Assembly: GCA_028287065.1 (NCBI GenBank)
Contig: JAQBQJ010000098.1
Location: forward strand, 1-64,000
Length of the DNA: 64,000 bases
Origin: Labilithrix sp.
GTDB taxonomy: Bacteria; Myxococcota_A; Polyangia; Polyangiales; Polyangiaceae
Direction of reading: 5' to 3'
Part shown: positions 38,071 to 61,739 of the stretch, in pieces
Layout of the letters: each line of letters begins with the position of its first letter
Numbering within the stretch: position 1 is the first letter of the stretch
Program-made: the position numbers and the translations under genes
The notes under the pieces: generated by a model
Database searches by the model: none
What the model was told of the DNA's origin: nothing
What the model saw: only the letters and a program-made list of their open reading frames with translations

Positions 38071-40320
<2,250 letters not shown>

Positions 40321-40583: not shown

Positions 40584-40808
40584 ATGAGTCGAACCTTCGT
40601 CGCCACCGTTTGCCTGGTCATCACGGCGTGTGCCGGCAGTGATCTCCCGGCGCCTTCGCCGCAACATGCCGCGAGCCCGCGCGCGCCCGAGGCCGCATTC
40701 GACCCCGGCCCGAACCCACTCGACGCAGGTGTCGCGCCGTCGACGGCACCGAACGCTGCGCCGTCCTCGGGCGGGCACGGCCACGGCGCCGGGAAGAAGA
40801 AGCCATGA
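40584..40808 (+). CDS. Small lipoprotein with His/Gly tail (HGHGAGKKKP)
   Basis: MSRTFVATVCLVITAC lipobox; stop overlaps next start (ATGA). Confidence 0.65.
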   Translation: MSRTFVATVCLVITACAGSDLPAPSPQHAASPRAPEAAFDPGPNPLDAGVAPSTAPNAAPSSGGHGHGAGKKKP

Positions 40809-42175
40809 AGCGCCTGGCGTTCGTTGCCGCGCTCGCGCTCGCTGGATGCGCATCGACGTCCCCGAAGGACGGTTTCCGCGACGTCGCACAGAAGGTCGAG
40901 CAGCAGAGCGGCCGTCGCGTCATGTGGGATCAGGGCGGCGACGACGATGCGAAGGTCAAGGACGCGATCGCCAAGCTGCTCGCGTCCGAGCTGTCCGTCG
41001 ACGCGGCCGTGCAGGTGGCGTTGCTCGACAACCCGACGCTCATCGCGACGTACGAAGAGCTCAGCATCGCACAAGCAGACCTCGTGCAAGCCGGCCTCCT
41101 GAAGAACCCCGTCTTCACGGTGGGTCGGACGGCGTGGGAGGCGGAGCACATCGATCCGAACCTCTTCGCCAGCGTCGAGCAGGATGTCCTCGACCTGATC
41201 ATGTTGCCGGCCCGAAAGAAGATCGCGAAGTCGCAGCTCGAGCAGGCCAAGCATCGCCTCCTCGGCGAGATCCTCGATTTGGCCGGACGGACCCGCACCG
41301 CGTTCTATGCGCTGCAAGCTGCGCAACAGACCGCCGCGATGCGCCGCGAGATCGTCGAGGCCGCCGAGGCTGCGGTGGATCTGGCCACGCGCCAGTACGA
41401 GGCCGGCAACCTCTACGAGTTCGCCCTCGCGAACGAGCGCGCCGGCTTCGCGCAGCTCCAGCTCGGGCTGGCGCAGAGCGATCTCACGGTCACGCAAGCG
41501 CGCGCCGATCTCGCGAAGCTTCTCGGCGTGTGGGGACCTACGATGTCGTTCCGCGTTCCGGAGCGGCTCCCGGAGCTACCTGCCGAGGAGGTCTCGCTCG
41601 AGCACCTCGAGAGCCTCGCCGTCGGTCAGCGCGCCGAGCTCGCCGCGGCCACCCAGCAGCACCGCACGCTCCACTACGCGCTGAATCTCGCGAAGACGAC
41701 GCGTTGGTTCGGCACCGTGACAGTCGGCGCGGAGGTCGGGCGCCTGCGGAGCGGCAACGTCTCCATTGGCCCCAGCGCGACCATCGAGATCCCGTTATTC
41801 GACCAGCGACAGGCGGCGATCGCACGCCTCGAAGCGATGGTACGTGCGGCGGCGTCGACGGAGCGCGCCGTCGCCATCGACATCCGCGCCGACGTCAATG
41901 CAGTCCGCGCTCGCCTCGTGGCTGCGCGCCGGACCGTCGAGTTCTATCGCGACACGATCTTGCCGACACGGCGAAACCTCACGAGGCTCGCGCAAGTACA
42001 GTACGACGCGATGCTCCTCAGCGTGTACCAGCTCCTCCAGATCCGCCAACAAGAGGTCGCCGCGATGGCCGAGTACCTCGAGGCACTCCGCGAGTACTGG
42101 ACGGCGCGCTCCGACCTCGAACGTGCCGTCGGCGGTCGTCTACCGGTCGCGACTCATCCCGCCCATTCGCCCTGA
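40805..42175 (+). CDS. TolC-family outer membrane lipoprotein
   Basis: MKRLAFVAALALAGC; LLDNPTLIATYEELSIAQADLVQAGLLKNPVF; followed by multicopper oxidase. Confidence 0.88.
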   Translation: MKRLAFVAALALAGCASTSPKDGFRDVAQKVEQQSGRRVMWDQGGDDDAKVKDAIAKLLASELSVDAAVQVALLDNPTLIATYEELSIAQADLVQAGLLKNPVFTVGRTAWEAEHIDPNLFASVEQDVLDLIMLPARKKIAKSQLEQAKHRLLGEILDLAGRTRTAFYALQAAQQTAAMRREIVEAAEAAVDLATRQYEAGNLYEFALANERAGFAQLQLGLAQSDLTVTQARADLAKLLGVWGPTMSFRVPERLPELPAEEVSLEHLESLAVGQRAELAAATQQHRTLHYALNLAKTTRWFGTVTVGAEVGRLRSGNVSIGPSATIEIPLFDQRQAAIARLEAMVRAAASTERAVAIDIRADVNAVRARLVAARRTVEFYRDTILPTRRNLTRLAQVQYDAMLLSVYQLLQIRQQEVAAMAEYLEALREYWTARSDLERAVGGRLPVATHPAHSP

Positions 42176-42185
42176 GGTCAATCCG

Positions 42186-43451
42186 ATGTTCAGTCGACGT
42201 CAGCTCCTCGCGTCTGCGGCCGCCATCGGCGGCGTCTCTCTGTTGAACCCGCGCGCCGCGATCGCCGGCGGCGACGGCATCCCCAAGGTGCCGACGCAGC
42301 CCCACTTCGATCTCCCGCCGAACAAGGGACCGTTCCCTTACACGCCCGTCGAGACGCTCAACGGCGTCACGCTCCCCTGGAAGATGGAGAACGGCGTGAA
42401 GGTCTTCCATCTCGTCGCCGAGGAGGTCGATCGCGAGTTCGCGCCCGGCATGATCGTGAAGTGCTGGGGCTACAACGGCGTGACCCCCGGGCCGACGATC
42501 GAGGCCGTTCAGGGTGACCGCGTTCGTTTCCTCGTCACCAACAAGCTCCCGGAGCGCACGAGCGTTCACTGGCATGGCCTGCTGCTCCCGAACGGCATGG
42601 ACGGCGTCGCCGGCCTCAACCAGCCGCACATCGAGCGCGGTGAGACGTACGTCTACGAGTTCACCCTCAAGGAGGCGGGCACGTTCATGTACCACCCTCA
42701 CTCGGACGAGATGGTGCAGATGGCGCTCGGCATGATGGGAATGTTCGTGGTCCATCCTCGCGTGCCGGAGAGCCCGCGCATCGACCGCGACTTTGCCATC
42801 ATGCTCCACGAGTGGTTCATCGCGCCGGGTACCGCGCGTCCGAACCCGGCGGTGATGACGGACTTCAACATCTTCACCTTCAACTCGCGCGTGTGGCCGG
42901 GCACCGCGCCGCTCGTCGTGCGGACCGGACAGCGCGTTCGCGTGCGCTTCGGGAACCTGTCGATGGACAGCCATCCCATCCATCTTCACGGCTATCACTT
43001 CGAGCAGACGGCGACGGACGGAGGAAAGACTCCGGTGACCGCTCGGCTCCCCGAGACGACCGTGAACGTCCCGGTGGGCTCGACGCGCGACATCGAATGG
43101 GTCGCCGACGCGCCCGGGGATTGGGCCTTTCATTGCCACAAGTCGCATCACACGATGAATGCGATGAGCCACGACCTGCCCGTGATGATCGGCGTCGACC
43201 AGTCGAGCAGCGAGGCGAAGATACGCAAGCTGGCGCCCGGCTACATGGCCATGGGCTCGGCGGGCATGGCCATGATGGACATGGGCACGCCCAAGAACAC
43301 GCTTCCGATGATGACGGGCGAAGGCCCGTTCGGCCCCATCGAGATGGGCGGCATGTTCACGGTCGTGAAGGTGCGCGAAGGCATCAAGTCGTACGAGGAC
43401 CCGGGGTGGTACAAGCACCCGGCCGGTACCGTCGCCTACAAGTTGAAATAG
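42186..43451 (+). CDS. Multicopper oxidase with signal sequence
   Basis: SVHWHGLLLPNGMDG, GTFMYHPHSDE, HPIHLHGY, FHCHKSHHTMNAMSH copper-ligand motifs; Met-rich C-terminus. Confidence 0.93.
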   Translation: MFSRRQLLASAAAIGGVSLLNPRAAIAGGDGIPKVPTQPHFDLPPNKGPFPYTPVETLNGVTLPWKMENGVKVFHLVAEEVDREFAPGMIVKCWGYNGVTPGPTIEAVQGDRVRFLVTNKLPERTSVHWHGLLLPNGMDGVAGLNQPHIERGETYVYEFTLKEAGTFMYHPHSDEMVQMALGMMGMFVVHPRVPESPRIDRDFAIMLHEWFIAPGTARPNPAVMTDFNIFTFNSRVWPGTAPLVVRTGQRVRVRFGNLSMDSHPIHLHGYHFEQTATDGGKTPVTARLPETTVNVPVGSTRDIEWVADAPGDWAFHCHKSHHTMNAMSHDLPVMIGVDQSSSEAKIRKLAPGYMAMGSAGMAMMDMGTPKNTLPMMTGEGPFGPIEMGGMFTVVKVREGIKSYEDPGWYKHPAGTVAYKLK

Positions 43452-47728: not shown

Positions 47729-48232
47729 TCACCCGTCGATGCAGAACGAGAACGCCGCGTCCTGCGGCGCCACGTTCGGCATCTGCACGGTGACCGTCAG
47801 ACGCCACAGCCCCGGCATCGGCAGGTACACGTTCGTGACGTCGTAGGTGCCGCCGCCCTTCGGCGTGACGGTCGGCTTGACCGAGCTGCCGTGACCGTGA
47901 TCGGGCATGAACGGCGTCACCGACACTGTCGCTCCGTCGACGGGCGCGCCGGCCGCATCGACCACCTGCAACGTGAGCTCGTTCGACTGCTTCGCCGGCG
48001 GCGCTGGGCTCGCGGCCATCAGCTTGACGGACAGCGCGCCCGGCGTGGTCTGCTTCGCGAGACCTGCGGTGTAGACGTCCTTGCGCGCATCGGTCGCGCA
48101 TGCGCTGGTCGTGCCGGTCGTGCCGCTTGCACCGCTCGTGCCGCTCGTCCCGTCATCGCTGCTGCTGCATGCGCCTGCAAGGATCGCGAGCCCGGCGAGA
48201 ACGACGAAGCGGGTGGCGAGGGAAGCGGACAT
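47729..48232 (-). CDS. YtkA/FixH-like lipoprotein
   Basis: VTPFMPDHGHGSSVKPTVTPKGGGTYDVTNVYLPMPGLWRLTV; MSASLATRFVVLAGLAILAGAC. Confidence 0.75.
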   Translation of the reverse strand: MSASLATRFVVLAGLAILAGACSSSDDGTSGTSGASGTTGTTSACATDARKDVYTAGLAKQTTPGALSVKLMAASPAPPAKQSNELTLQVVDAAGAPVDGATVSVTPFMPDHGHGSSVKPTVTPKGGGTYDVTNVYLPMPGLWRLTVTVQMPNVAPQDAAFSFCIDG

Positions 48233-48366
48233 GGGGGCGGTGCTCTGAAGAAGGAGTACGGCGGAGCCTGGCTCGCGGTTTCGAAGCAAAGGCTCGCCGC
48301 GTCGCGTCACATGCTCGAAGCCTAGCACGCAGGCGTACGTGCGCCCGCGAGGGTAGGATCACAGGC

Positions 48367-49450: not shown

Positions 49451-50089
49451 TCACTGGACGTTGACGAAGAACGCGATGTGGCCGTGCGGCGAGTCCTCGC
49501 CGTCGACGCAGTCGGCATGGAAGTGGAAACGGACGTTCCACTTGCCCGGCGCATCGAAGCGAACGGGACCGATCGTGTAGTGACCCGGCGACGTCTCGGT
49601 CGTCTTCGACGGCGTGTTCGGCGCGGGGTGCGTCTCGTCGAGGAAGATCTCGGCGTACGGCTCCGCGGCCGCGACCGGCGAGCTGTCGTTGCGGTTCGTC
49701 GCGACGATCGAGAACGTCACGTCCGTGTTGACCGCGACCGGCGTCGATTCCCATTTCACGTGGTACTTGCACTCGTCGTCGTCGCCCTCGGAGTTGTAGA
49801 TCGTCTCGCCGTATTCGTCGCCTGCCGGCGCCCCGGCATCGGCCTCGGCCGCGTCCGGCTCGTCGTGCGTGTGCCCGGCATCCGCGGCGCTCTCGTCGTG
49901 GCATTTGGCTGCGCTCGCGACGACGACCGGCTTGCCGTTGCAGCGCGTGTTCTGCGGTCCGGCGACCGCAGCCGCCGTGGACGTGCTGGGCGTCGTCGTC
50001 GAATCGGTCTTCGACGAAGAGCACGCGACGACCAGCGCGCATGTGGCGACGCTGGAAAGGATGCCAAGGCGGACGGCGGAAGCGTTCAT
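49451..50089 (-). CDS. YtkA/FixH-like lipoprotein
   Basis: GHYTIGPVRFDAPGKWNVRFHFHADCVDGEDSPHGHIAFFV; MNASAVRLGILSSVATCALVVAC. Confidence 0.7.
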   Translation of the reverse strand: MNASAVRLGILSSVATCALVVACSSSKTDSTTTPSTSTAAAVAGPQNTRCNGKPVVVASAAKCHDESAADAGHTHDEPDAAEADAGAPAGDEYGETIYNSEGDDDECKYHVKWESTPVAVNTDVTFSIVATNRNDSSPVAAAEPYAEIFLDETHPAPNTPSKTTETSPGHYTIGPVRFDAPGKWNVRFHFHADCVDGEDSPHGHIAFFVNVQ

Positions 50090-50145
50090 GGTCTTGATGA
50101 TGATCGATCCGAACGCGGCCATCCGCGTGGTGTTTTGACGCACCC

Positions 50146-50715
50146 TCAACGTTTCTGGAGGGCGCACCCGAGGGCTTTTCCCTCGGCAATACGGGGCTCT
50201 CGGCCGGCGACGAGGTCATCGAGCGCGTCGCGCAGATACGTCTTCGTGTCGTCGCGGAGTCGGTCCTTGTCGGAGTCGATGCCGCCACGATACCGCACGC
50301 GTCCGCGAGCATCGAGGACGACCGTGTACGTTGCGTAATCCGCGGCGAGCGCATCGGCGAGCTTCGCTCCCGGATCGATCGCGATCGCCGGCAGACCGCG
50401 CTCGGCGGCGGCGCGCGCATCGCGCTCGGTCGTCGCGGATACCTCCGAGTCGACGAGGAGCATGCGCACGCCGTGCGCCGCATACGCGCGCTCGAGCTCG
50501 AGGAGCCGCGCCTCGTGCACGCGGAAGCACGGACAGTGCTCGGAGTAGAAGACGACGACCGTGAGCTTCGCGCGCGCGAGATCGTCGGGCAACGTCGCCG
50601 CCCCGCCCTTCGTGTCGACGAGCGTCATCGAGGGCACCGTCGTGTCCGCCGGCGAGCGTGAAGGCGCGCACGCGACAAGCGAGAGCGCGAAGAGAGCTGC
50701 GCGCTTCAGTACCAC
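50146..50715 (-). CDS. Thioredoxin-fold redoxin lipoprotein
   Basis: LTVVVFYSEHCPCFRVHEARLLELERAY; RGRVRYRGGID; LGCALQKR tail. Confidence 0.8.
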   Translation of the reverse strand: MVLKRAALFALSLVACAPSRSPADTTVPSMTLVDTKGGAATLPDDLARAKLTVVVFYSEHCPCFRVHEARLLELERAYAAHGVRMLLVDSEVSATTERDARAAAERGLPAIAIDPGAKLADALAADYATYTVVLDARGRVRYRGGIDSDKDRLRDDTKTYLRDALDDLVAGREPRIAEGKALGCALQKR

Positions 50716-51636: not shown

Positions 51637-52101
51637 TCAGCGTATGTCGAACCGAGGCGCGAGATGATCGCTGCCGGATCCGCCGATGGTCGTGCGGATC
51701 TCCCAGAGGCCGGGCATGAAGAGGTTCACGTTGGTCACGTCGTACGTCCCGGGCTCGGTGCCGGGCTGCACCGACGGCTTGACCGAAGCGCCGTGGCCCA
51801 TCGCGGGCATCCAAGGCACGACGTCGACGTCGAGGCCGGAGGCGGGGGCACCGTCCGAGATCCGCGAGACCACCAGCCGCAGCGTGTTCACCCCGCGCGA
51901 GGGCGTCGCATCCGGTGCACTATGCACGGAAACGCGATAGCCGCCGCCGTCGGTCGTGACCACCGCCGCGGGCTCGGCGGAGATCGTCCCGGTACCGCCC
52001 GCGCCCGCATCGCTGCAGCCGACCAGCGCGGAGCCGGCGAGCGGAGACGCGAAGAGCGCGAAGAGCGAGACGACGACCGAGCGAGAGAGCCAGGCTTTCA
52101 T
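51637..52101 (-). CDS. YtkA/FixH-like lipoprotein
   Basis: VVPWMPAMGHGASVKPSVQPGTEPGTYDVTNVNLFMPGLWEIRTTI. Confidence 0.78.
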   Translation of the reverse strand: MKAWLSRSVVVSLFALFASPLAGSALVGCSDAGAGGTGTISAEPAAVVTTDGGGYRVSVHSAPDATPSRGVNTLRLVVSRISDGAPASGLDVDVVPWMPAMGHGASVKPSVQPGTEPGTYDVTNVNLFMPGLWEIRTTIGGSGSDHLAPRFDIR

Positions 52102-52164: not shown

Positions 52165-52710
52165 TCAGCGGCTGCTCGGATACTTCGAGAGCTTCCGCTG
52201 CAGGCTCCGGCGGTGGAGGCCGAGCAGCCTCGCGGCCTGCGAGATATTTCCGCCGCAATCGGTGAGCACGCGATTGATGTGCTCCCATTCGGCGCGCGCG
52301 AGCGAAGGGACGACGTTCTTGTCCTCGACGGCGAGCGGCTCGGGGGGCCTGGTCGCGCGCTCGAATGCAGCGAGCAGCTCGTCGACGTCGGCGGGCTTCG
52401 TGAGGTAGTGCGTCGCGCCGAGCCGTACCGCCTCGAGCGCGGTCGCGATGCTGCCGTAGCCGGTGAGCACGACGACGTTCGTCATCGAGTCGATGGCCTT
52501 GAGCTCGCGGACGACGTCGAGGCCGGAGATGCCGGGCATGCGGAGATCGACGACGGCGTACTCGGGGCTCTCCTTCTTCGCGAGCGCGACGGCCGACTCG
52601 CCGTCGCGTGCGCCTTGCGCCTCGAAGCCGCGCGCCTGGAATGCGCGGACGAGGCGGCTGCGAAACGTCTCGTCGTCGTCGACCACGAGGACCGATGCTG
52701 CGCTCGTCAT
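52165..52710 (-). CDS. RegA/PrrA-like response regulator with Fis-type HTH
   Basis: VLVVDDDETFRSRLVRAF, DLRMPGISGL, GYGSIATALEAVRLGATHYLTKPAD, SQAARLLGLHRRSLQRKL. Confidence 0.9.
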   Translation of the reverse strand: MTSAASVLVVDDDETFRSRLVRAFQARGFEAQGARDGESAVALAKKESPEYAVVDLRMPGISGLDVVRELKAIDSMTNVVVLTGYGSIATALEAVRLGATHYLTKPADVDELLAAFERATRPPEPLAVEDKNVVPSLARAEWEHINRVLTDCGGNISQAARLLGLHRRSLQRKLSKYPSSR

Positions 52711-54068
52711 GATCCACCCCGCGGTGCATTCGATGCCGCCGCGACCGGCAGCTCGAGGGTGACGCGCGTCCCCTTCCCTTCTTCGGACGCGAAGACGAGC
52801 TGCCCGCCGTAGCGATCGGCGAACGCGCGCGCGAGGAAGAGCCCTAGGCCCATGCCCTGGCCCGGGGGCTTGGTGGTGAAGAACGGCTCGCCGACGCGAT
52901 CGAGATCGGCGCGCGCGACGCCGTGACCGCGGTCGGTCACGGTGAATCGAACGACGTCCTTGGCGACGTCGGACACGAGCACGACGGGCGTGTTCGTGTC
53001 CGCCGGCGTCGCATGGAGCGCGTTCTGCACGAGGTTCGAGAGCACCTGCACGAGGCCCTGCACCGGCACCTCGAACGAGGCGTCCGTGAGCTGGACGTCG
53101 ACGCCGGAGAGCGCCCCTTCGCCCATGCGCTCGCGGAGCGCGGCGATCACCGCGGTGGTGGTCGTGCGCTCGGCCACCTCGCCGATGGTCTGACCGGCGC
53201 TCGCGCTCATGCGTCGCACGATGGCGCGACAGCGTTCGAGCTCGTCGCGAATCAAGCGAGCGTCCTCGACGGCCTCGTCGGGGGCGCTGTGAATCGAGCG
53301 CTCCAGCTCCTTGGCGGCGATCGCGATGGTGCCGAGCGGCGTGCCGAGCTCGTGGGCCGCGCCGGCGGCGAGCGTGCTGAGGGACGCGAGCTTCTCGTTG
53401 CGCGCCGCGAGCTGCTGCGCGCGCAGGAGCTCGGCCTCGCGAGCGCGGAGAGCGCCGGCGACGCGCGTGACGAAGTACGCGATGAGCGACGCGGCGATCG
53501 TCAGCGCGAACCACATGCCCTGGAGGTGCACCGAGAACGCCGTACCGCTGTGGTGCGCGTGCTCCATGGCGGGAACGTTGACGTGCTCGAAGAACAGCGT
53601 CGCGTACGAGAGCACCGAGAGGACGACGACGATACCGGCCCAGCGGATGCCGAGCGCGACGGCGGCGAGCGTGACGTGCACGAGGTAGAAGACGCTGAAC
53701 GGATTCGCCGGACCGCCCGAGAAATAGAGCAGCGCCGTGAGCAGCATCGTGTCGAGCGCGAAGACCGCGCCGAGCACGGAGCCGTGCGGATCGCGCCGCT
53801 TGCGCGACCAGAGATCGAGCGCGACGTTCGAGATGCCCGATGCGGCGACGACACATGCGAGCGCGGTGATGGGCACGTCGACGTCGAGGACGTAGCGAGC
53901 GGCGGCGACGGTCGCTGCCTGCGCGGCGAAGAAGCCCCAGCGGAGGCGAACGAGCCACGTGAGCGTGATCGCGGTCGCGGAGCGCTCGGCGGCGAGCGGC
54001 GCGTTGGAAGCGCGTGCCTCGGCCGGCGAAGCAGCCAGCGTACGAGCTCGAAGGGCGACGTCGGTCAC
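52707..54068 (-). CDS. RegB/PrrB-like sensor histidine kinase
   Basis: Multiple TMs; LAAGAAHELGTPLGTIAIAAKELE; DRGHGV; GMGLGLFLARAFADRYGG. Confidence 0.9.
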   Translation of the reverse strand: MTDVALRARTLAASPAEARASNAPLAAERSATAITLTWLVRLRWGFFAAQAATVAAARYVLDVDVPITALACVVAASGISNVALDLWSRKRRDPHGSVLGAVFALDTMLLTALLYFSGGPANPFSVFYLVHVTLAAVALGIRWAGIVVVLSVLSYATLFFEHVNVPAMEHAHHSGTAFSVHLQGMWFALTIAASLIAYFVTRVAGALRAREAELLRAQQLAARNEKLASLSTLAAGAAHELGTPLGTIAIAAKELERSIHSAPDEAVEDARLIRDELERCRAIVRRMSASAGQTIGEVAERTTTTAVIAALRERMGEGALSGVDVQLTDASFEVPVQGLVQVLSNLVQNALHATPADTNTPVVLVSDVAKDVVRFTVTDRGHGVARADLDRVGEPFFTTKPPGQGMGLGLFLARAFADRYGGQLVFASEEGKGTRVTLELPVAAASNAPRGGS

Positions 54069-54790: not shown

Positions 54791-54795
54791 CGAAT

Positions 54796-54883
54796 GAGAA
54801 CAGGAACAGGAACAGGAACGGGAACGAGAATTCTCGAAAAATTCTCGTTCTGATTCCTGTTCCTGTTCCTGTTCCCTGTTCTC
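54796..54883. repeat. Long imperfect inverted repeat built from GGAACA hexamers
   Basis: Left arm GAGAACAGGAACAGGAACAGGAACGGGAACGAGAATT, right arm ATTCTCGTTCTGATTCCTGTTCCTGTTCCTGTTCCCTGTTCTC. Confidence 0.85.
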
Positions 54884-54896
54884 TTTTGGATCCCTC

Positions 54897-55718
54897 TCAG
54901 GAGTTTTCCCGCGCCCCCAACAAAACCCCACGCTCCCCCAAATCCGCCAGCAGCTTCGCCGCGCCACCGACCACCGGCGCGTCCAGCGCAAACCCCTTCG
55001 CTGCGCACGCCTCGACCATCGCCTGCGCCAGCGGCCTCCCCTCGAACAGCCGCTCCAGGATCGCGCACGCCAGCGGCGTCAGATCCAGCATCCGCGTGCA
55101 GTGCTGCGCGTCGCGATACACGAGCAGGTCCACCGGCCGCTCCGCCGGCGTCGCTTTGACGTCGTCGCCCGCGAGCTCGTGCACCGCCCACCCCAGATGC
55201 ACGATCACGCGCGGGTCCCCGAACACCAGCGCGCGGTCCGCCGTCACGTCCGCGAGCGGCGGCGGAGGCGACGGGCGCGGCGCGACGCCGATCGTGAAGT
55301 CGACGAGCTCGAGCTCCGCATAATCGGTCAGCCACGCCGGGATGCGCGCATCCTTCCGCCACCGCGGCCCCACCCACGCGAGGAACTCGCTCGGCACGTC
55401 GCGCAGATGCGGCGTGCGCGGGCCGTGTGCCGCGAGGAATCCGTCGACGGAGCGATCGAGCTCGCCCGGCACGTGCGCGTCGAGTCGCGCGCGCGTGCGC
55501 TCGAGCATCATGCCGATCACGTTCACCACGTTGTGCCTCACGAGCTGCCGGTACAGCCCGAGCCGCCGCGGCGACGCGAGGATCGCCTCGGCATCCTCCT
55601 TCGCGACGCCATGACGCGCGAGATATGCCTCGAGATCGCCGCCGAGCGCATCGGCCGAATCGCCGAAGCACGCGTCCGCGAACAACGCGTGTAGGCCGTT
55701 CACGTCCGCGCCGCTCAT
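54897..55718 (-). CDS. DUF2063 / HvfC-BufC-like RiPP maturation partner protein
   Basis: N-terminal LYRQLVRHNVVNVIGMMLERTRARL resembles DUF2063; 4-bp overlap with MNIO gene. Confidence 0.72.
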   Translation of the reverse strand: MSGADVNGLHALFADACFGDSADALGGDLEAYLARHGVAKEDAEAILASPRRLGLYRQLVRHNVVNVIGMMLERTRARLDAHVPGELDRSVDGFLAAHGPRTPHLRDVPSEFLAWVGPRWRKDARIPAWLTDYAELELVDFTIGVAPRPSPPPPLADVTADRALVFGDPRVIVHLGWAVHELAGDDVKATPAERPVDLLVYRDAQHCTRMLDLTPLACAILERLFEGRPLAQAMVEACAAKGFALDAPVVGGAAKLLADLGERGVLLGARENS

Positions 55719-56659
55719 GCCGGCTTCGCGGTCGCCCGCGTCCAGATCGCCTTGACCTTCGCGATCTCCGCCAGCAGCTCGGACAGCGGCGGGATCGCCT
55801 GATCGCGCTCGAGCAGCACCGGCACCGGCCCCGTCTTCGCCAGCGTGCGCTCGAGCAGCGCGAGCACGTCGTCGCAGCAGTCCGCCCCGTGCGTGTCGAC
55901 GATCAGCTTGCCGTCCGTCTCGCGCGCGTCGCGCGGGACGTCGGTCGCCTTCCACTCGCCTTCGGTGAACCAGTCGTGTCCCGCGACGTGCATCTGCACG
56001 ACGCGATCGAGCGGCACCGTCGCCATCCACGCGTCGACGTCGAAGCCGAAGTTCGTCGCGTTCACGTACGCGTTGTTCACGTCGAGCATCAGCCCGCAGT
56101 CCGCCGCATCACACACGCGCGCGATGAACTCCGCCTCGCTCATCTCGCGCTTGCCGGGATGCAGATAGAAGCTCACGTTCTCGATCGCCATCGGCCGCCC
56201 GATCGCGTCCTGCGCGCGCTTGATCCGATCGGCGACGCGACCGACCTCGGCCTCCTTGAACGGGATCGGCAACAGGTCGTGCAGCACGACGCCCCCGAAC
56301 GTGCTGAAGCAGAGATGGTCCGAATGCCATGGGCTCTTCACGCGATCGAGGAACGCGGCGAGGCCCTTCAAGTAGTCCTCGCGCAGCGGATCCACGCCGC
56401 CGATGCTCATCGTGAGACCGTGCGTGACGATCGGCCAGAGCTCGCGCGCGCGGTCGAGCGCCTCGTCGTAGTACCCGCCGCGACCCATGTAGTTCTCGGG
56501 CGAGATCTCGACGAAGTCGAGCGCGGGCTTCTTTTCGAGGAGCTCGTCGACGAAGTCCCAGCGCAGGCCGAGCCCGACGCCGTTCACGCCTCTCGCTCCC
56601 GTCTTCTCTGCTCCGGCGGTACTCACGGAACACTCGTTTCGAAACGAAGGTGAGCCCAC
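55715..56659 (-). CDS. DUF692 multinuclear non-heme iron oxidase (MNIO; BufB/HvfB-like)
   Basis: GVGLGLR..FVEISPENYMGRGGYY; THGLTMSIGG; WHSDHLCFS; AIENVSFYL; LMLDVNNAYVNATN; HVAGHD. Confidence 0.9.
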   Translation of the reverse strand: MGSPSFRNECSVSTAGAEKTGARGVNGVGLGLRWDFVDELLEKKPALDFVEISPENYMGRGGYYDEALDRARELWPIVTHGLTMSIGGVDPLREDYLKGLAAFLDRVKSPWHSDHLCFSTFGGVVLHDLLPIPFKEAEVGRVADRIKRAQDAIGRPMAIENVSFYLHPGKREMSEAEFIARVCDAADCGLMLDVNNAYVNATNFGFDVDAWMATVPLDRVVQMHVAGHDWFTEGEWKATDVPRDARETDGKLIVDTHGADCCDDVLALLERTLAKTGPVPVLLERDQAIPPLSELLAEIAKVKAIWTRATAKPA

Positions 56660-56716
56660 GAAAGCCCACGAAATAGAGGGGCGAAGGGATGTCCCTCCGC
56701 CCCTCCGAGCGTCACG

Positions 56717-57184
56717 TCACTTCTTCGCGCTGCACGTACCCGCGCCGCAGCTACCCGAGCCGCCCTTCTTGGCGGGCGCGGGCGGAGCCGCCGGCTTCTT
56801 GCCGGTGGTCGAAGCGGGCGCCGGCGTCGAACCGGTGACACCCTTCGCGTCTGCGGGCTTCGCATCCGCGGGCTTCGCGTCCGCCGGCGTCGCCGCGGCG
56901 GGCGTCGTCGCGGGCGTCGAGGCCGCCGCGCCGGTCGCGTCGGCCGGCTTCGCGTCCGTCTTGTGGTCGGCGGAGCACGTGGCCTCGCCGGCCTTGTGGT
57001 CCTTGCCCGCGCCGCAATGATTGGCGCCGTCGGCTGCCTTCTCGGTTGCGCCGCTGACCTCGTTCGCGTTCACGGGGGTCTTCGGTTCCTCACCGCCGCA
57101 CGCGGCCATGATCACGCCCGTGCCCAGGACGGCGAGCGCCGCCGTAATGCTCTCAAGACTCAGATTCGGTCGCATCCCTCTCAC
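56717..57184 (-). CDS. Putative bufferin/HvfA-like modified RiPP precursor with two Cys modules
   Basis: Signal-like N-terminus; NHCGAGKDHKAGEATCSADHK and C-terminal GSCGAGTCSAKK; immediately upstream of MNIO and DUF2063 genes. Confidence 0.7.
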   Translation of the reverse strand: MRGMRPNLSLESITAALAVLGTGVIMAACGGEEPKTPVNANEVSGATEKAADGANHCGAGKDHKAGEATCSADHKTDAKPADATGAAASTPATTPAAATPADAKPADAKPADAKGVTGSTPAPASTTGKKPAAPPAPAKKGGSGSCGAGTCSAKK

Positions 57185-57277: not shown

Positions 57278-58093
57278 TCAAGACTGCGGCGTAGCGCGAA
57301 GATCGAGTGTGATATCGGCCACCTCGGCCACCTTCGTACCCAGCAGATTGAACGCGCCCTTGGCGATTTTTCCGAAGCCGTCACGCGGTTTGACGTCGTG
57401 CTCGGACAGCGTCGCACGCAGCGGCTTCTTCGATTTGATCGTGAGCGAAGTCGGCTTGTCGGCCGCGGCGCCCGGCGGGTAATGGAACGCGACTTCGACG
57501 TCCGCATCGCGATCGACCTTGTGACCGTGAATCAAGAATTCGCCGTGCGTCGTCGCGGTGACGGTGCGGACCTCGTCGGCGCCGTCCTTCGTCGCGGCGA
57601 GCTTCGTGAGATCCGTCGCGCTCAGGTTGTCGATCGAACGGATCGCGTAGACCGCGTACTTGTTCGCGGCCTTGACGTCGTCCGGCAGCTTGCCTTCTTC
57701 GCCGTCGGCGACCTCGAGCCACGTGCGCGCGTGTCCGGTCTGCGTCTTGTCCTTGTCGGCCTCGCCGAACGTCTTCGTCGAGAGCGTCGTGAGATCGGCC
57801 TTCACCTCACCGCGCGTCTGCGCGAGGTTCATGAAGTCGACGTCGAGCGTGCCTGCCGCGCCGTCGGTGCCCGCCTTGATGTGCTCCTTCGGGGCCGGCA
57901 TGTCGATCGAGGTGCCGCTCTTCGGATCGATGACGAACTTCATCGACTTCGCGGACGGCGCGACCGTCGACGGAGCGAGCGAGCTTGCCGCAGGCGCGAG
58001 GTTCTGCGGTTTCTTGTCCTCGCACCCTCCCGCGCCTAGCCCGATGGCGAGTGCGATGGTCGGTACGACGATGACGGCGATCGCGCGCTTCAT
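57278..58093 (-). CDS. Lipoprotein, possibly YceI-like
   Basis: MKRAIAVIVVPTIALAIGLGAGGC; GTLDVDFMNLAQTRGEVKADLTTLST. Confidence 0.6.
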   Translation of the reverse strand: MKRAIAVIVVPTIALAIGLGAGGCEDKKPQNLAPAASSLAPSTVAPSAKSMKFVIDPKSGTSIDMPAPKEHIKAGTDGAAGTLDVDFMNLAQTRGEVKADLTTLSTKTFGEADKDKTQTGHARTWLEVADGEEGKLPDDVKAANKYAVYAIRSIDNLSATDLTKLAATKDGADEVRTVTATTHGEFLIHGHKVDRDADVEVAFHYPPGAAADKPTSLTIKSKKPLRATLSEHDVKPRDGFGKIAKGAFNLLGTKVAEVADITLDLRATPQS

Positions 58094-59456: not shown

Positions 59457-61739
59457 GTGGCGCAGCCGCCTTCCGTACAGACCGTCGCAAAAGGCGACGA
59501 GGACATGCTCGTCATCCCGGTGACCGGCATGACGTGCACGGCCTGCGCCAATCGCGTGCAACGTGCGATCGCCAAAGCGCCCGGCGTCGTCCGCGCCGAG
59601 GTGAGCTTCGCGACGCGCGCCGCGAAGATCACGCTCGACGATCCCACGCGCGATCTACCGAGCGCGCTCGATGCGATCCTCGGAGCGGGCTACGAGCCGG
59701 CCGCGAACGCCGAGCAGATCCTCTCGCGTCGCGGCGCGGCCGCCGCGGCCAAGATCGAGCGCGAACAGCAGCGTCGTGACGCGGGACGTGCGATCGCGGC
59801 GCTCGCGATCGCCGCACTCCAGATGCTCTTCAGCATGCCGATGATGGCCCACGGCGGGCGCATGATGCCCGGCCTCGCGGGTCCGGCGATGCACCCGATG
59901 CTGCGCTGGGCGCTCCTCGTATCGACGCTCGTCGTCATCGTCATCGCGCGCTCGTTCTTCGTGCGCGCGTGGTCCGCGCTGAAGCAGCGGACGGCGGACA
60001 TGAACACGCTCGTCGCCCTCGGGAGCGGCACCGCGTTCCTCTACTCCGCCGCCGCGACGGCATGGCCTTCGTGGTTCGCGACCGAAGCGCAGCTCCCCGA
60101 CGTCCACTTCGAGGCCGCGAGCTTCATCCTCGCCTTCGTGCTGCTCGGGCGCACGATCGAGGCGCGCGCGCGCTCCCGGACGACCTCCGCGCAGAGCGGG
60201 CTGCTCGCGCTCGTCCCTGCGTTCGCGAACGTGGTGCGCGACGGCCACGAGGTGCGCGTCGCCGCGAACGAGGTGCGCGCCGGCGACGTCTTCGTCCTCC
60301 GTCCTGGCGGTCGCGCGCCGGCGGACGGCGTCGTCACCGAGGGCTCGTCGCAGCTCGACGAAGCGCTGATTACGGGCGAGAGCCGCCGCGTCGCGAAGCA
60401 CGTGGGCGACGCGATCGATGCCGGCACCAAGGCCGTCGACGGGCTCGTGCACGTCCGCGCGGTCCGCACCGGAACGGACACGCGCATCGCTCGGATCGCC
60501 GCGCTCGTGGAGGACGCGCAGGCGACGCGCGCGCCGGTACAGCGCCTCGCCGATCGCATCGCCGCCTATTTCGCCCCGGGAATCGTCGCTCTGGCGACGG
60601 CATCTGCGCTCGCGTGGTGGCTCTTCGGACCGGAGCCGAAGCTCGTGCACGCGCTCACCACGTTCGTCACCGTCGTCGTCGTGTCGTGCCCGTGTGCGCT
60701 CGGTCTCGCCACGCCCACCGCGATCGCGACGGCGATCGGCCGCGCCGCGCAGCTCGGGATCCTCGTTCGATCCGGAGACGCGCTCGAGAGAGCGGCGCGG
60801 ATCGACACGGTCGCGATCGACAAGACGGGCACGCTCACCGAAGGCGAGCCGGCCGTGGTCGAGTTCGTCGCGCTCGGTGGCGCAGACGAGGACGAGGTCC
60901 TCCGCCTCGCGGCCGCGGTCGAGAAGGGCAGCGAGCATCCGGTCGGCGAAGCGATCGTCGCCGAGGCCGAGGCACGTGGCCTCGAGGTGCCGCCGATCGC
61001 GAAGTTCGTGGCGACGGCCGGGAGCGGCGCGCGTGCGGACGTGCGGGGCTTGGACGTGCGCGTCGGCGCGATGGCGTGGCTCGCGAGCGAAGGCATCACG
61101 ATGCCCGAGGGCGGAGCGCCCGACGCGGCCTTCGGCGTCGCGATCGACGGCGTGCTGCGCGGGCACGGCATGGTCGCCGACAGCCTGCGCGAGGACGCTC
61201 CGCTCGCCGTCGCGAAGCTGCATGCGATGAGCATCCGCGTCGTCGTCCTCACCGGCGACCGCGAGGAGATCGCGCGCGCGGTCGGGAAGGCGCTGCACGT
61301 CGACGACGTCCGCGCCGAGCTCGGTCCCGAGGGCAAGCTCGCGGCTCTCGACGAGCTCGCGAAGGAAGGACGCCGCGTCGCGATGTGCGGCGACGGCGTG
61401 AACGACGCGCCCGCGCTCGCACGCGCGCACGTCGGCATCGCGATCGGCTCCGGCACGGACGTCGCCATCGACGCGAGCGACGTGACGCTCCTCGAGGGCG
61501 GCATCGCTCGCCTCCCCGACGCGATCGCGCTCGCCCGCCGGAGCATGCGCGTCATCCGCCAGAACCTCGCCTGGGCGTTCGCCTACAACGTCGCGCTCAT
61601 CCCGATCGCTGCAGGCGCGCTCGTACCGTGGCTCGGCTACCGCATGCCCCCTGCCCTCGCGTCCGCCGCGATGGCCCTCTCGAGCATCAGCGTGGTGCTG
61701 AGCTCGCTCCGGCTCCGTCGCTTCTCGCCGAAGGCCTGA
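59457..61739 (+). CDS. copA: Copper-type P1B ATPase with one N-terminal HMA domain
   Basis: [50 protein letters not shown]; alternative ATG at 59505. Confidence 0.93.
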   Translation: MAQPPSVQTVAKGDEDMLVIPVTGMTCTACANRVQRAIAKAPGVVRAEVSFATRAAKITLDDPTRDLPSALDAILGAGYEPAANAEQILSRRGAAAAAKIEREQQRRDAGRAIAALAIAALQMLFSMPMMAHGGRMMPGLAGPAMHPMLRWALLVSTLVVIVIARSFFVRAWSALKQRTADMNTLVALGSGTAFLYSAAATAWPSWFATEAQLPDVHFEAASFILAFVLLGRTIEARARSRTTSAQSGLLALVPAFANVVRDGHEVRVAANEVRAGDVFVLRPGGRAPADGVVTEGSSQLDEALITGESRRVAKHVGDAIDAGTKAVDGLVHVRAVRTGTDTRIARIAALVEDAQATRAPVQRLADRIAAYFAPGIVALATASALAWWLFGPEPKLVHALTTFVTVVVVSCPCALGLATPTAIATAIGRAAQLGILVRSGDALERAARIDTVAIDKTGTLTEGEPAVVEFVALGGADEDEVLRLAAAVEKGSEHPVGEAIVAEAEARGLEVPPIAKFVATAGSGARADVRGLDVRVGAMAWLASEGITMPEGGAPDAAFGVAIDGVLRGHGMVADSLREDAPLAVAKLHAMSIRVVVLTGDREEIARAVGKALHVDDVRAELGPEGKLAALDELAKEGRRVAMCGDGVNDAPALARAHVGIAIGSGTDVAIDASDVTLLEGGIARLPDAIALARRSMRVIRQNLAWAFAYNVALIPIAAGALVPWLGYRMPPALASAAMALSSISVVLSSLRLRRFSPKA

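Follow-up and report, generated by a model that had tools for sequence, protein, structure and literature searches.

A lipoprotein-type precursor beside an MNIO enzyme and a DUF2063 partner: a candidate lipid-anchored, MNIO-modified RiPP cassette in Polyangia and Nannocystia

Small Cys-bearing peptides modified by an MNIO enzyme (DUF692) and a type 1 partner protein (PME1) make up a newly defined class of RiPPs, the characterised products of which all carry 5-thiooxazoles and generally bind copper (PMC13097082). In the oxazolins, fontiphorins and gonophorins (HvfA, FonA, the EGKCG captophorins), a signal-bearing precursor gene is followed by the MNIO and PME1 genes, and the Cys residues of the precursor recur at a 5-residue spacing amid Gly. 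A lipidated oxazolin, NedA, is triacylated and changes by -4 Da per motif (PMC12636315), and a Lys before the Cys is not required, since FonBC modifies NVCGG (PMC13097082). Bufferins 1 and 2, with DUF2282 and Buf_6/12Cys precursors, have the same A-B-C gene order and a PME1 partner, and some bufferins 2 are lipidated. The CxxxxC family was described with 76 proteins (PMC12452194), in clusters containing DoxX and, in 54% of cases, Lactamase_B_2; a lipidated CxxxxC cluster was noted without being characterised (PMC12636315).

Here, a stretch of 64,000 nucleotides from Labilithrix sp., hereafter the window, was found to contain a cassette of this general kind. The assembly of the source genome is fragmented (577 contigs) and 72% complete. 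As the original prediction had it, three minus-strand genes follow each other in the order precursor, MNIO/DUF692 enzyme and DUF2063 partner, and open reading frames and HMM matches agree with this description. The features discussed below are as follows.

57278-58093, minus strand: YceI/BcnA-type lipocalin lipoprotein, conserved upstream neighbour (adjacency, PF04264 orthologues, modelled fold)
56717-57175, minus strand: RiPP precursor, lipoprotein-type, 152 aa from ATG, Cys at 26, 54, 67, 143 and 148 (ORF; start by conserved MRPNLS and SD)
57098-57175, minus strand: lipoprotein signal peptide to lipobox MAAC (Cys26), Gly at +2, presumed part of the leader (lipobox rule, 58-precursor alignment)
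57056-57079, minus strand: TPVNANEV, of the [ST]PVxAxEV stretch, candidate recognition segment (58-precursor alignment)
56975-57016, minus strand: inner Cys module CGAGKDHKAGEATC with Cys54 and Cys67 (sequence)
56732-56749, minus strand: terminal CGAGTC with Cys143 and Cys148, proposed main modification site (50 dereplicated precursors)
56676-56706, minus strand: strong hairpin between the precursor and MNIO genes, proposed partial terminator or attenuator (z -5.7 and -6.7)
55715-56626, minus strand: MNIO enzyme (DUF692), GTG start (PF05114 1.4e-95; PDB 3BWW 3.2e-52; conserved active-site set)
54897-55718, minus strand: PME type 1 partner, DUF2063 plus RRE-like C-terminal domain (DUF2063 1.7e-7; NGO1945_C 2.3e-9; fold)

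The first start listed for the precursor ORF is a GTG at 57184, but the ATG at 57175 is the better start because it is preceded by AAAGGAG and relatives keep MRPNLS. The MNIO and PME genes overlap by 4 bp, as predicted (ATGA, 55718-55715), and the latter ends at 54897. A GAACAG/CTGTTC hexamer palindrome lies directly past it (54795-54885); it is a dispersed repeat, matched 98 times in the genome. An Rfam scan of the whole window returned zero matches.

The HMM search named beforehand for DUF692 and DUF2063 gave matches for both proteins. The enzyme scored above cut-off with PF05114 and aligned with PDB 3BWW over almost the full length, while the partner scored above cut-off with both PF09836 (DUF2063) and PF22106 (NGO1945_C). 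The model of the partner (pLDDT 92) matches the NGO1945 structure PDB 3DEE (E 1.2e-6) and TglI 8HI7. Of the 80 related loci examined (see below), 72 encode a PME partner. Natural single-ORF fusions of MNIO and PME occur in eight loci (L069, L071, L107, L109, L110, L111, L117 and L120, from Nannocystis, Paraliomyxa and Polyangiaceae), L032 also looks like such a fusion, and in L051, L052, L055, L056, L057, L058, L068 and L085 the downstream PME gene is encoded on the other strand and converges on that of the MNIO.

The precursor is organised as a lipoprotein signal running to MAAC-GG, the TPVNANEV stretch, CGAGKDHKAGEATC, a tether rich in Ala, Pro and Lys, and a terminal CGAGTCSAKK. Lipidation is predicted from the lipobox rule; the window sequence reads VIMAAC-GG, and relatives have LAAC, LVAC, LIAC and similar. 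The small signal-bearing Cys protein of the original prediction thus contains five Cys in total, the lipobox Cys26 and four others, and its atypical two-module architecture is borne out, with Cys54 and Cys67 in the inner module and Cys143 and Cys148 in the terminal one. No Pfam or NCBIfam model matched the precursor. Searches with it found no significant match except itself in its own genome, and no match in plasmids.

MNIO relatives were detected at E<=1e-40 in 90 of 110 genomes of the same family as that of the window. A scan of named genomes yielded 80 loci, spanning Labilithrix, Sorangium, Polyangium, Nannocystis, Plesiocystis, Enhygromyxa, many Polyangia MAGs and four Melainabacteria; leaving out six loci at contig edges and the four melainabacterial ones, 70 non-edge Myxococcota loci remained. 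A lipoprotein-type Cys precursor directly precedes the MNIO gene in 59 of them (58 by script, L059 by eye), and the other 11 have no recognisable precursor just upstream. The precursor family is conserved across Polyangia and Nannocystia and has a lipobox, frequently followed by a [ST]PVxAxEV stretch, together with a variable tether of Ala, Pro and Lys, 0-8 Cys repeats in the inner part and CGxG[TS]C at the end. The check for a conserved precursor in homologous loci, also named in advance, bore the prediction out: CGxGxC ends 51 of 59 script-found precursors, that of the window included, versus 3 among the 8130 remaining ORFs of these loci (a further ORF with this ending, in L100, is itself such a precursor and stands outside the 3). 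The frequency of the lipobox is not an independent result, because the precursor counts required one; a lipobox-free search recovered the same ORFs. Two Obscuribacterales MNIO loci (L101 and L116) have SPI-type precursors with GEKSCKK or EGSCKGK repeats and an R-R-Q enzyme pocket.

Conservation is unevenly spread along the precursor. Among 50 dereplicated sequences, the terminal motif has the composition C50 G50 x G49 [T44/S5] C50, versus about 0.3-0.7 bits per column in the part of the tether lying further than 14 residues ahead of it. In a lipobox-anchored alignment, the residue at +2 is Gly in 37 of 58 precursors. A PVxAxEV-like stretch occurs within 35 aa of the lipobox in 34 of the 58 and elsewhere in one; with this frequency it was rejected as a universal leader motif and stays a candidate. 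The inner region comprises 2-4 EGGCGAHK- or AGCSAGHK-type repeats in congeners and none in others, so that the two-module shape is real but the terminal module is the conserved one. Eight precursors without the terminal motif have inner repeats only; five were included in the tree, where they form one clade.

The original prediction had described the cassette as bufferin/HvfABC-like. This holds for its general kind, an MNIO with a DUF2063 partner, but the cassette belongs to neither named family. The enzyme scored below cut-off with the NCBIfam models of BufB (287.7, cut-off 310) and HvfB (285, cut-off 360), as did the partner with that of HvfC (91.2, cut-off 142), and the precursor has neither the DUF2282 domain of bufferin 1 (Pfam) nor an EGKCG repeat. 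Its five Cys, lipobox Cys included, also contrast with the 6 or 12 conserved Cys of the bufferin 2 type. The spacing of the Cys in CGAGTC is that of EGKCGEGKCG, with Ser/Thr replacing Lys; instead of EGKCG, the motifs here are CGAGTC and CGAGK/EATC, with one terminal CGAGTC and a short inner module carried on a long tether. In the tree, 27 enzymes of the same type as that of the window (type A) formed one group with support of 99/98, outside of which fell all of the few references included (six Buf1, two Buf2, one HvfB-like and one CxxxxC-like enzyme). The genome of the window contains a second MNIO and DUF2063 cassette (L001, contig C343, 934-3164), with the precursor HACKGKNDCKGQGGCKTDKNSCKGQNACKGQGGCKTT and an enzyme that groups with bufferin enzymes. 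A third MNIO (L003, 1480-2820) is 447 aa long, with a long C-terminal extension and a very long tree branch; it adjoins an apparent TsaB gene, recognised by eye, and has no evident precursor.

Within the active site, a His/Asp/Glu/Asn set is invariant or near-invariant in 81 type-A sequences, one Asp being Glu in four of them. The catalytic and specificity residues reported for FonB (PMC13097082) were mapped onto the window enzyme through the 3BWW alignment and motif position. The catalytic Asp is kept in the aligned type-A sequences, while specificity residues R16 and F250 of FonB correspond to Trp and Gln, giving a substrate pocket of R-W-Q as compared with R-R-F in HvfB/FonB; chemistry or site choice could therefore differ. 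The frequency of Trp is biased, because the search pattern partly required it, but Trp is present in all eleven homology-found sequences of A1 in the family search. The pocket residues covary with the repeats-only precursors, which may reflect a single event, as these precursors fit one clade.

In 35 of the 80 loci, the next gene upstream of the cassette, in the same orientation, encodes a YceI-type lipoprotein. PF04264 is matched by 19 of 25 YceI-type orthologues (best 3e-6); the window copy gave no match by itself in the Pfam search, and its model (pLDDT 86) matches YceI/BcnA structures at E 5e-8. The lipocalin and the product of the cassette probably contribute to a common response to envelope stress. 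A YceI-type lipocalin gene also belongs to the system of YceI/BcnA lipocalin and cytochrome b561 (LcoA), but the protein here is a lipoprotein encoded beside an MNIO cassette in place of a cytochrome b561 partner. The lack of a DoxX-like gene (HvfX/BufD) nearby, recorded in the original prediction, turned out to be the norm for this lineage: the neighbourhood of the cassette in the window has no DoxX, five copies being encoded elsewhere in the genome, and among the matches listed for 25 relatives not one is close to the type-A enzyme, six of these relatives having no DoxX match at all. The cassette differs in this from the oxazolins, with their HvfX/DoxX, and from the bufferins, the sigma and NrsF genes of which are likewise missing here. 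Lactamase_B_2 is also absent near the type-A enzyme in the 25 relatives among the matches listed.

The copper-type P-type ATPase predicted about 2.3 kb away is present (59505-61739), but the support that it had been taken to give to a copper role is weak: it adjoins the cassette in just 2 of 80 loci, carries little weight for that reason, and was dropped as evidence. The window also contains a copper-type island with an HMBD P-type ATPase (38074-40320, minus strand), an outer membrane efflux protein (40805-42172, plus strand) and a multicopper oxidase (42186-43448, plus strand). Three YtkA-like proteins (47732-48328, 49454-50137 and 51640-52101) and a redoxin (50149-50715) are encoded within 5 kb and possibly belong to metal or redox handling. 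Downstream of the cassette (52168-54068) are an ActS/PrrB/RegB-like histidine kinase, so named from its best NCBIfam match, which is below cut-off, and a Fis-type response regulator; the adjacency of this pair is not conserved over the 80 loci.

The gap between the precursor and MNIO genes has a folding z below -3 in 13 of 30 relatives, versus 1 of the 29 gaps that precede the precursor gene (Mann-Whitney p=0.005, uncorrected for kinship), and T-rich tails follow the hairpins of several relatives. A strict terminator scan did not flag the hairpin of the window, and a sigma-70 promoter scan found no promoter. We infer that the hairpin attenuates transcription in favour of the precursor.

With a PF05114 enzyme, a PME1 partner and a Cys-bearing signal precursor before the MNIO gene, the locus has the gene set of the captophorin class. 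Judged from its genes, the product of the cassette is quite likely a metallophore of the captophorin (5-thiooxazole) class, a RiPP modified by the MNIO and anchored through a lipid. The lipobox, the CGxG[TS]C end, the conserved active site, the PME1 fold and the conservation across two classes point to this reading, while the R-W-Q pocket, the non-conserved copper genes and the 11 of 70 loci without a recognisable precursor count against it. Copper is the probable ligand, by analogy with the class. In the cytosol, the PME would bind the N-terminal leader (the signal peptide, perhaps with TPVNANEV) and present the Cys to the MNIO, which would convert Cys143 and Cys148, probably along with Cys54 and Cys67, into 5-thiooxazoles by four-electron oxidation, with a mass change of -4 Da per Cys and up to -16 Da. 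Sec export and acylation of Cys26 by Lgt/LspA would then anchor the product in the envelope, where the A/P/K tether may keep the metal-binding head off the membrane. The head would bind a soft metal, most likely Cu(I), and buffer it outside the cytoplasm, and the hairpin behind the precursor gene would hold the precursor in excess over the enzyme.

Several other readings bear on parts of this proposal. The small ORF might be an unrelated Ala/Pro-rich lipoprotein, with the true substrate encoded elsewhere, as its low-complexity tether and lack of an HMM match could suggest; its place immediately ahead of the MNIO gene in 59 loci, the conserved leader and the mostly terminal CGxGxC nearly refute this by conservation, and we regard it as highly improbable. 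That the MNIO performs a reaction other than thiooxazole formation, or that the terminal and inner Cys serve as plain thiols or a disulfide, would fit the replacement of the FonB specificity residues by Trp and Gln, but appears improbable given the conserved catalytic Asp and metal-ligand set, enzyme scores much higher with BufB/HvfB than with MbnB, ChrH and ApyH, and the PME partner in most loci.

More room is left for the precursor being simply a divergent representative of the already published CxxxxC family (Antoine 2025; lipidated Cluster X, DybA preprint), which we nevertheless consider rather unlikely. CGAGTC is a C-x4-C motif, Cluster X precursors likewise have lipoprotein signals, and the CxxxxC-type precursor of an Escherichia albertii plasmid (L130) ends in DGKCVSGICGK, with the same C-x-x-G-x-C-G spacing. 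However, the DoxX and Lactamase_B_2 genes of the family's description are missing near type-A enzymes, as noted above, whereas the plasmid locus has MBL-fold and DoxX genes; its precursor has no lipobox, and its enzyme falls outside type A, beside the HvfB-like one, which suggests a different branch. The same modified lipoprotein could also have a role other than in copper handling, with another soft metal or in envelope defence against redox stress or lipid peroxides together with the YceI/BcnA-type lipocalin. The conserved neighbour is indeed the YceI-type gene and not a copper gene (35 versus 2 of 80 loci), BcnA lipocalin shields the envelope from lipid peroxyl radicals (PMC9113575), and gold is another metal to which bufferin operons respond (PMC12452194). 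Against this stand the copper binding general among characterised MNIO-PME1 products and the Cu-ATPase, HMBD ATPase, efflux protein and multicopper oxidase of the window, and a non-copper role seems unlikely.

The class itself is already known, and both lipidated and CxxxxC precursors have been reported; what appears to be new is a Myxococcota branch with its own tail motif and neighbour gene. More speculatively, and with considerable doubt, Myxococcota may have lipid-tethered thiooxazole metallophores of their own, with a head reduced to one terminal CGxGTC pair on a disordered tether and a YceI/BcnA-type lipocalin in place of DoxX, which together would remove a redox metal and the resulting lipid peroxides. 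The RiPP class gains a Myxococcota precursor family for which no Pfam or NCBIfam model exists. Because its motif is minimal, one C-x4-C pair, a single precursor could serve to test the requirements of an MNIO for flanking residues as well as the way in which a two-thiooxazole site binds copper. Clusters without DoxX illustrate that the cassette does not need it, and the conserved YceI-type neighbour provides a lead on the role of the peptide in the envelope.
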